Positions 56,221 to 61,167 of a DNA stretch of 64,000 bases are shown piece by piece. Location of the stretch: the NCBI RefSeq assembly GCF_003977615.1, contig NZ_RYZR01000007.1:558001-622000 (forward strand), in the 5' to 3' direction. The notes beneath the pieces are model-generated. The model was not told the origin of the DNA and ran no database searches. It saw only the letters and a list, made by a program, of their open reading frames with translations. Both the position numbers and the translations under genes were made by a program. The DNA is from Dyella dinghuensis. GTDB taxonomy: Bacteria > Pseudomonadota > Gammaproteobacteria > Xanthomonadales > Rhodanobacteraceae. Positions within the stretch are counted from its first letter, which is position 1. Every line of letters begins with the position of its first letter.

Positions 56221-56249
56221 TTGACACCGGCGGTGCGCTAAACTAACTT
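56221..56249 (+). promoter_or_regulatory. Candidate thrS promoter
   Basis: A perfect -35 box TTGACA (56221-56226) is followed after 17 nt by TAACTT (56244-56249), a modest -10. A transcript from about 56256 would contain the leader ORF and the hairpin described next, with thrS about 230 nt downstream. Confidence 0.6.
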
Positions 56250-56309
56250 TTCGGTATCAACCTGCAGAGAGAAGGTGGCCCGCGCCCAGGCGCCGGCCGA
56301 GCGTGCGAC

Positions 56310-56336
56310 ATGGCTACTACGAACTTCCAACATTAA
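56310..56336 (+). CDS. Candidate thrS leader peptide (MATTNFQH)
   Basis: An eight-codon frame, ATG GCT ACT ACG AAC TTC CAA CAT, then TAA, lies about 55 nt from the expected transcript start. Codons 3 and 4 are both for threonine, the amino acid charged by the downstream product. The ribosome-binding site is weak (GGCCGAG). Proposed as the sensing peptide of an attenuator; it has no other recognisable role. Confidence 0.5.
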   Translation: MATTNFQH

Positions 56337-56345
56337 AACTCGCCA

Positions 56346-56386
56346 CGCCTTATCTCCAAAAAGGGCGCATGGCGCCTTTATTTTTG
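56346..56386 (+). promoter_or_regulatory. Candidate antiterminator/terminator of a thrS attenuator
   Basis: The terminator is AAAGG(G)CGC (56360-56368) pairing with GCGCCTTT (56372-56379) around a 3-nt loop, followed by ATTTTTG. An alternative pairing joins CGCCTT (56346-56351) with AAGGGCG (56361-56367), which would use the left arm of the terminator. A ribosome at the leader stop would cover 56346-56351, while one stalled at the Thr codons would leave it free. Confidence 0.5.
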
Positions 56387-56485
56387 CCCGTCGTCCAGGC
56401 GGGCGAGCGCAAAACCGGCCATCCCTGGCCGGACTCCTCAAAATAGGCACGTTTCTTTTTGAAGTGTGCAGAGTCAGGTAGTCAT

Positions 56486-58387
56486 ATGATCGAAATCACG
56501 CTCCCCGATGGCAGCAAACGCCCCTTCGACCATCCGGTGACGGTGCAGGACGTGGCCGCCTCCATTGGCGCCGGTCTGGCCAAAGCCACGCTGGCCGGCA
56601 AAGTCGACGGCAAGCTGGTCGATGCCAGCTTCCCCATCGACCACAATGCCCGCCTCGAAATCGTCACCGAGAAAAGCCCGGAGGCGCTGGAGATTCTTCG
56701 CCACTCCACGGCGCACTTGCTAGCGCAGGCCGTGCAGCGCCTGTATCCCGGCGCGCAGGTGACGATCGGTCCGGTGATCGACAACGGTTTTTATTACGAC
56801 TTCGCGTATGAGCGCCCGTTTACGCCCGACGATCTGGTGAAGATCGAGGCGGAGATGGAAAAGATCGTCAAGGAACAGCTGCCGGTCACGCGCAGCGTGA
56901 AGTCGCGCGACGATGCGGTGAATTTCTTCCGTGGCATCGGCGAGGAGTACAAGGCCGAGATCATCGAAAGCATTCCTGCGAACGAAGACCTGTCGCTCTA
57001 CACGCAGGGTGAATTCACGGATCTGTGCCGCGGCCCGCATGTGCCGAACACGGGCAAGCTGCGCGCGTTCAAGCTGATGAAAGTCGCCGGCGCGTATTGG
57101 CGTGGCGATTCCAACAACGCGATGCTTACGCGTATCTATGGCACGTCGTGGCTGAGCGACAAGGACCTCAAGGCCTATCTGCATCAGCTCGAAGAAGCCG
57201 AGAAGCGCGATCACCGCAAGATCGGCAAGGCGCTGGATCTGTTCCATCAGCAGGAAGAAGCGCCGGGCATGGTGTTCTGGCATCCGAACGGCTGGGCCAT
57301 CTGGCAGGTCGTGGAGCAGTACGTGCGCAGCGTGTATCGCCAGAGCGGTTACCAGGAAGTGCGCGCGCCGCAGATTCTGGACGTGAGCCTGTGGAAGAAG
57401 TCCGGCCATTGGGACAACTACCAGGAAAACATGTTCTTCACGGAATCGGAAAAGCGCACGTATGCCGTGAAGCCAATGAACTGCCCAGGTCATGTGCAGA
57501 TCTACAACACGAACCTGCATAGCTACCGCGATCTGCCGATCCGTTACGGCGAATTCGGCGGTTGTCATCGCAACGAACCGTCGGGTGCGTTGCACGGCAT
57601 CATGCGCGTGCGTGCATTCACGCAGGACGATGGCCACATCTTTTGCACGGAAGAACAGATCGAATCCGAAGTCACCGCTTTCCATAAGCAGGCGATGAAG
57701 GTGTACGCCGACTTCGGTTTCGAAGACATTGCGTTGAAGATCGCGTTGCGCCCCGACAAGCGCATCGGCAGCGATGAGGTGTGGGATCGCGCCGAAGATG
57801 CTCTGCGCGCCGCGCTGCGTGCTGCGGGCGTGCAGTGGGAAGAGTTACCGGGCGAGGGCGCTTTCTACGGTCCGAAGATCGAGTACCACATGAAAGACTC
57901 CATCGGCCGCGCCTGGCAGGTCGGCACGATGCAGGTGGATTTCATGATGCCCGAGCGTCTTGGTGCCGAGTACGTCGACGAGCACAGCCAGCGCAAGCAT
58001 CCGGTAATGCTGCATCGTGCGATCGTGGGTTCGATGGAACGCTTCATCGGCATTCTCATCGAGCACCACGCAGGCAATCTGCCGCCCTGGCTCGCGCCGG
58101 TGCAGGCGCAGGTTTTCAGCATTACGGACGCGCAGGGCGATTATGTGCGTCATGTGACGCAAACCCTTGTCGATAAAGGCTTCCGCGTGCAGGCCGATTT
58201 GCGCAACGAGAAGGTCGGCTATAAAATCCGCGAACATACGATGCAGAGAGTGCCCTACCTGCTTGTGGTCGGCGATCGCGAAAAGGAATCGGGCACTGTT
58301 TCCGTGCGTACTCGTTCGGGCGAAGATCTAGGCAGCATGCCGCTTGCCAGCTTCATCGAACGCCTGGAGGCCGAGACGCGGCGTTGA
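56486..58387 (+). CDS. thrS: Threonyl-tRNA synthetase
   Basis: A class II synthetase of 633 aa with an N-terminal TGS domain ([20 protein letters not shown]), the editing domain ([16 protein letters not shown], with YYDF and the [16 protein letters not shown] metal region), the catalytic core ([26 protein letters not shown]) and a C-terminal anticodon-binding domain. The ATG at 56486 fits the family. It begins the thrS-infC-rpmI-rplT-pheST-ihfA series. The long leader (56250-56485) holds the proposed attenuator. Confidence 0.97.
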
Positions 58388-59946: not shown

Positions 59947-59980
59947 CGGGGAGAAGGCCTAAAGCCTTCTCCCCGTTTTT
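59947..59980 (+). terminator. Strong rho-independent terminator after rplT
   Basis: A perfect 12-bp stem CGGGGAGAAGGC/GCCTTCTCCCCG around CTAAA, followed by five T. It separates rplT from pheS, so pheST probably needs its own promoter or partial read-through. No Phe-rich leader ORF was found before it. Confidence 0.93.
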
Positions 59981-59996
59981 GTTTGAGCTTCCGCTC

Positions 59997-61167
<1,171 letters not shown>

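Follow-up and report, generated by a model that had tools for sequence, protein, structure and literature searches.

A candidate leader-peptide attenuator before thrS in Dyella dinghuensis and in related genomes of its order

The leader of thrS in the window

The window is a stretch of 64,000 nucleotides from D. dinghuensis, and all positions below are counted within it. As listed in Table 1, the gene for threonyl-tRNA synthetase (ThrRS), thrS, is preceded by a promoter, a structured start region, an eight-codon ORF with two adjacent Thr codons and an intrinsic terminator. Direct reading found each element of the original prediction in its place: promoter, ORF, Thr codons, CGCCTT segment, hairpin, ATTTTTG and thrS. 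The hairpin, which had been described as bulged, folds instead as 8 pairs with one G.U. The proposed competing stem was partly right: the CGCCTT segment is present, but the alternative helix is longer, and strand 1 had been missed. This antiterminator is an 11-bp helix of 56341-56351 with 56362-56367 and 56370-56374 at −14.2 kcal/mol, the terminator folding at −10.2.

The genes after thrS are, judging from their sequences, presumably infC, rpmI, rplT, pheS and pheT, in this order. The order from thrS to pheS is that annotated in E. coli, where pheM is also annotated; by-eye inspection of the window noticed no pheM-like leader before pheS. The interval between rplT and pheS (59949-60140) contains a terminator-like palindrome, ggggagaaggcctaaagccttctccccgttttt, and two more GC-rich palindromes at about 60001-60023 and 60114-60136. 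Two palindromes also lie between the terminator and thrS, at 56386-56404 and 56415-56434. The second, CCGGCCATCCnTGGCCGGAC, occurs at 5 places of the genome with at most 2 mismatches and recurs before thrS in relatives in varying number (L013, L018); it resembles a small family of REP-type repeats.

Table 1. Features of the thrS leader in the window, and loci of the anticodon-arm-like hairpin in other orders.
Feature	Position	Strand	Basis or parts
Sigma-70-type promoter, TTGACA-N17-TAACTT	56221..56249	+	Direct reading; −35 56221-56226, −10 56244-56249
Strand 1, GAGAGAAGGTGGC, partner of strand 2	56267..56279	+	Matched vs mismatched-genome helix energies
SD-like AAGGTGG inside strand 1	56272-56278	+	
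41-nt conserved element, 3′ end at the leader AUG	56272..56312	+	Covariance model R1
Hairpin between SD-like segment and AUG, conserved mismatch 56281/56294	56277..56298	+	Covariation
Conserved flank GAGCGTGCGAC before AUG	56299..56309	+	Several invariant or near-invariant alignment columns
Leader ORF MATTNFQH*	56310..56336	+	ATG 56310, stop TAA 56334-56336
Thr codons ACT ACG of leader ORF	56316-56321	+	
Strand 2, CGCCACGCCTTATCTC	56341..56356	+	Left arm of antiterminator 56341-56351
CGCCTT segment	56346-56351	+	Direct reading
Intrinsic terminator AAGGGCGC-ATG-GCGCCTTT	56361..56385	+	Hairpin 56361-56379, then ATTTTTG
Terminator pieces	strand 3 56361-56368, loop 56369-56371, strand 4 56372-56379, T-run 56381-56385	+	
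Antiterminator right arm	56362..56374	+	56362-56367 and 56370-56374
thrS, threonyl-tRNA synthetase, regulated gene	56486..58387	+	ATG 56486
Anticodon-arm-like hairpins 5′ of thrS (other orders)	L304-L307, L309, L311, L313, L315-L320, L322, L324, L329, L330		

A generic promoter scan of the window returned no promoter-like site under the rules of that tool, and a generic scan of both strands found 3 terminator-like sites vs 1.2 expected. The folding z was −1.40 for 56340-56390 and −2.82 for 56256-56486. Taken by themselves, such results from the window do not settle the matter; the comparison across genomes does.

Conservation of the leader and of its start region

ThrS homologues were found in 96 of the 97 genomes of the family to which the window genome belongs (f1). 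Leaders were read in 90 of these 96 and additionally in G030, with G036, G043, G056, G085 and G096 left out. A common leader lies 5′ of thrS in 83 of the 90, and G023 has no recognised leader upstream of thrS (loci L063, L268). Of the 83, 69 have a leader ORF of 8 codons. Codon 3 encodes Thr in all 83 and codon 4 in 61; Thr is likewise at codon 3 in all of the 35 fetched matches carrying the motif from a second family of the order (f2). The original prediction had counted two Thr codons correctly and held this number to be a weakness, but it is usual for these leaders: two or three are present in 74 and one in 9. ACT is the third codon of 72 of the 83 leaders, whereas six genes of the window use it for 7 of their 144 Thr codons, a preference that would be expected if a slow codon were useful. 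In 59 of the 83 leaders, vs 2 of 1660 shuffles, a −35/−10 pair lies 40-115 nt 5′ of the leader ATG; the other 24 lack such a pair by the pattern used.

In the 83 f1 leaders the ORF is preceded by a conserved element with the layout AAGGTGG, hairpin, GAGyGTGyGAC, AUG. In the hairpin 96.1% of cells are paired, and double-change cells number 37 vs 13.1 after shuffling; as a control, sliding the hairpin partner collapses the double-change count. The internal mismatch is unpaired in 80 of the 83 leaders despite changing letters (C.C, G.G, G.A, A.A and others). Rfam scans of the window and of eight related loci returned no match on the leader, whether to the T-box or to any other family.

The covariance model of the element, R1, scored 66.6 bits at thrS in the window genome as the sole strong match, the next reaching 21.2 among the 150 of 6505 first-look candidates that were scored; the single strong match in the genome rules out a general leader module. 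Across 250 genomes of the order R1 matched at E<=0.01 in 109, and without six genomes that had weak matches alone in 103 (49 f1, 53 f2, one f4). Forty matches of this search were fetched. Five of them, without the motif, were left out of the terminator, ribosome-model, helix-fit and spacing analyses, namely L131, which is diverged yet at thrS, and L142-L145, whose fetched sequence gave no ThrS match. Named genomes were also scanned with a pattern that itself required AC at codon 3, which gave at least 118 stretches; among the matches listed 110 of 118 sit 40-400 nt 5′ of thrS, and the genera among the 80 matches listed by name include Dyella, Rhodanobacter, Frateuria, Lysobacter, Luteimonas, Stenotrophomonas and Xanthomonas. 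L234 and L257 are not among the 110, L213, L249, L253 and L265 look like chance matches, and L153 and L220 are probably stretches too short to reach thrS. The element is distributed over two families and is nearly always at thrS.

Most simply, the hairpin would be one part of a bipartite site at which translation of the leader ORF begins. Leaving the hairpin out brings AGGU next to GA, and we take the resulting AGGUGA to be the complement of UCACCU at the 3′ end of 16S rRNA; some leaders lack the G of GA. A bipartite start would also explain how strand 1 is able to hide the SD-like segment. The strict conservation of the element and its one strong copy, at thrS, would allow for a factor that binds it. 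Such a factor, with ThrRS as the obvious candidate, as in E. coli but recognising another RNA shape, might bind this ribosome-binding site with its hairpin and block leader translation, leading to termination through the helix of strands 1 and 2. We regard this as unlikely. If it were true, thrS would read both charged tRNA-Thr and the level of the enzyme in one RNA, and there would be a reason for the presence in an attenuator leader of a 41-nt element that is conserved across two families and has its one strong copy at thrS. As far as the literature searched shows, a conserved hairpin start region of a leader ORF is new, and we know of no counterpart for a leader peptide.

Outside these leaders the start regions vary. 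A short Thr ORF and a terminator precede thrS in 13 of 19 genomes of the order's other families vs 1 of 380 shuffles; in 6 of the 19 this pair was not found before thrS. By eye, the start regions of these leaders mostly differ, and G145 alone has the 41-nt type. A second start module, GGAGnCGUAG-hairpin-CACGAUCACC-AUG-ACG-CGA with small variations, was present in 7 of 21 upstream regions inspected and in 6 of the 90 family loci, one genome being in both sets. Its hairpin changes on both sides between genomes (GUUC/GAAC, GCCC/GGGC and GUCC/GGAC, by eye), and its core CACGATCACCATGAC has exactly one copy, just 5′ of thrS, in each of seven genomes searched. The loci with this module (L064, L065, L086, L088-L090, L269-L272, L275, L276, L289) carry the string CACGATCACCATGACGCGA, and their leader begins Met-Thr-Arg with the Arg codon CGA. 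A plain SD before the leader ORF was seen by eye in G107 and G102. In G100, G103, G104, G106 and G111 (loci L279, L281, L282, L284, L286) the leader ATG lies, by eye, six or seven nt past a −10-like box, a spacing that suggests leaderless translation of such ORFs in other families of the order.

These start regions bear on a different reading of the 41-nt element, as an RNA, not tRNA-like, that binds a ligand or protein and acts on leader translation or on the terminator, with the Thr codons secondary. Its conservation exceeds the need of an ordinary start region, and the one strong copy per genome and the position at thrS in 110 of 118 among the pattern matches listed would both suit such a role. 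The other families, however, keep the Thr ORF and the terminator but begin the ORF, by eye, at a plain SD, at a hairpin module unrelated to this one or at an ATG near a −10-like box, and the Thr codons are the constant part. This makes a ligand- or protein-binding element improbable.

Competing helices and ribosome models

In the window the leader can form a four-strand switch: strand 1 pairs with strand 2, strand 2 can alternatively pair with strands 3 and 4, and strands 3 and 4 together form the terminator. Helix fit, ribosome models and spacing were calculated for the leaders with a terminator, 113 of 118 (80 f1 and 33 f2), 5 having no passing terminator. In f1 (n = 80) helix 1:2 averaged −12.85 kcal/mol within genomes vs −11.65 kcal/mol between mismatched genomes and helix 2:3/4 −15.81 vs −14.90 (each 0/5000 permutations), and the control pair 1:3/4 had no effect (2143/5000), in tests that leave shared ancestry in. 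The fit was weaker in f2 (n = 33), with 199/5000 permutations for 1:2 and 24/5000 for 2:3/4. Strand 1 was first taken as 37 nt, which gave a weak difference (−19.66 vs −19.04, sd 0.253), and the clear 1:2 result came after it was cut to 14 nt ending in GGTGGC, a cut chosen post hoc.

When RNA downstream of the ribosome alone was folded, with footprints of +12 to +16, the modelled probability of the terminator in the window was 0.94 for free RNA, 0.00 with Thr3 or Thr4 in the A site and 0.95-0.96 with the stop codon in the A site. Over the 113 leaders the difference between stop and stall had a mean of 0.332 vs 0.072 with strand 2 scrambled (sd 0.026, maximum 0.133, 50 repeats). A gain above 0.3 at footprint +14 was obtained in 47 of the 113 leaders (29/80 f1, 18/33 f2), and 2 f2 leaders were reversed. 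With a model that allows pairing across the bound ribosome, the median switch effect over the 113 leaders was about zero; the prediction therefore requires that the ribosome keep upstream and downstream RNA apart. The left arm of the antiterminator begins a median of 3 nt past the stop codon in the 113 leaders, within reach of a terminating ribosome.

A terminator is also found in 129 of 354 shuffled regions, and the terminator alone is therefore weak evidence. Chance terminators being this common, one could suppose that the terminator merely ends leftover upstream transcription, with the ORF incidental and thrS constitutive. This is very improbable given the promoter 5′ of the ORF in 59 of 83 leaders, the invariant Thr codon, the helices that fit within genomes and the element at thrS.

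The leaders have what characterises an attenuator: a short ORF with cognate codons, a terminator between this ORF and the gene, and exclusive helices, which are weaker in f2. The geometry in which a stalled ribosome frees strand 2 and a terminating ribosome covers it is what the model folding downstream RNA alone gives for the window and for the mean of the 113 leaders. We consider it highly likely, from the sequences compared, that thrS is controlled by a leader-peptide transcription attenuator. The transcript would begin near 56256, and a ribosome would enter the 8-codon ORF through the bipartite start of AAGGTGG, hairpin and GAGCGTGCGAC-AUG. With ample Thr-tRNA the ribosome at the stop codon (56334) would cover strand 2, and strands 3 and 4 would terminate transcription. 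With scarce Thr-tRNA it would wait at 56316-56321, leaving strand 2 free to pair with 3/4 (11 bp), and thrS would be transcribed. If the ORF were untranslated, strand 1 would pair with strand 2, the SD-like segment would be hidden and termination would again be allowed.

Sequence and its comparison show the parts of this switch and how far they are conserved, and also the alternative helices and how these match within genomes. What we infer is translation of the leader ORF, termination, threonine shortage as the signal and a role of the hairpin in initiation. Threonine shortage would very probably lead to more threonyl-tRNA synthetase by way of a tiny ORF and a switchable RNA. The original prediction of an attenuator was right in substance. 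The alignment of relatives bore it out, with the leader ORF, the Thr codon and the competing stems conserved and the stems matched within genomes. It needs additions, not replacement: a first strand able to hide the SD-like segment, a longer antiterminator, a conserved structured start region and a wide spread in the order.

The operator of other orders and comparison with known systems

The gene thrS is a textbook case of translational autocontrol through tRNA mimicry, the operator hairpin of E. coli mimicking the anticodon arm of tRNA-Thr. According to the accessible text of PMC3858243, the bipartite ribosome-binding site of E. coli thrS is interrupted by a hairpin that ThrRS recognises. Among 28 loci of other gammaproteobacterial orders, 17 carry, just 5′ of thrS, an anticodon-arm-like hairpin whose loop contains CGU or GGU (Table 1), with a stem GTGRYC/GRYCAC and a loop with CGTA or GGTA in most of the 17. 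In these hairpins 98.0% of cells are paired, and double-change cells number 12 vs 3.4. Chosen by eye among the 28 loci, they trained the model R2, which recovers them at 25-48 bits by construction; L313 has a second R2 match. Rfam gave no match to the hairpin in five of the 17 loci. The independent checks of R2 are E. coli and the absence in this order. Before E. coli thrS R2 scored 33.0 bits, and this match is probably the ThrRS-recognised hairpin described in the accessible text of PMC3858243. In 148 sources of this order, which count three thrS loci twice (G023, G026, G145), R2 gave nothing above 12.5 bits. CGU, GGU or UGU was found in the hairpin loop of 0 of 83 leaders, and in the window and five relatives the likeness of the element to the genome's own tRNA-Thr(GGU) was no greater than that of shuffles. 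Mimicry of tRNA-Thr by the leader hairpin was rejected on these loop letters and shuffle comparisons, and an E. coli-type operator in these leaders on the absence of R2 matches and of an NGU loop. That ThrRS represses translation here by binding an anticodon-like hairpin beside the thrS ribosome-binding site, as known for E. coli from the accessible text of PMC3858243 and as R2 finds such a hairpin there and in its 17 training loci, is hardly credible against these results.

Conversely, a Thr ORF with a terminator was found in 0 of the 28 loci of other orders (shuffles 4/560), and no genome sampled showed both the attenuator and the E. coli-type operator. At thrS, ribosome-sensed attenuation appears to stand in for tRNA mimicry in many members of this order, a regulatory swap with intermediates in which the leader ORF starts at a hairpin, a plain SD or possibly a leaderless ATG. 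Titles and abstract openings found in the literature held no leader-peptide attenuator of thrS in these bacteria, which is weak evidence with subscription journals mostly outside the search; in the accessible text of PMC2965389 the word thrS is absent and threonyl occurs once, for the autocontrol of E. coli. Leader-peptide attenuation is of a known kind; as far as the literature searched shows, what is new is its apparent wide use at thrS in this order in place of the E. coli operator.

Leader-peptide attenuators are known from amino-acid operons such as thrABC, his and trp, and from pheST with pheM in E. coli. The thrS leaders share with them a short ORF of cognate codons, mutually exclusive helices and an intrinsic terminator before the gene. 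They differ in that thrS is the target, in having one to three Thr codons (83 leaders), and in a leader ORF whose start region is a conserved hairpin with covariation, without an Rfam match in the window or the eight related loci. The E. coli thrS operator has in common with them the gene and, in the accessible text of PMC3858243, a start region broken by a hairpin. Its hairpin precedes thrS itself, whereas here the hairpin precedes the leader peptide and likeness to tRNA-Thr was not found. The T-box leaders of thrS in Firmicutes bring about antitermination in response to uncharged tRNA-Thr. The leaders described here would resemble them in linking uncharged tRNA-Thr to antitermination, but the sensing would be done by the ribosome and not by the RNA.
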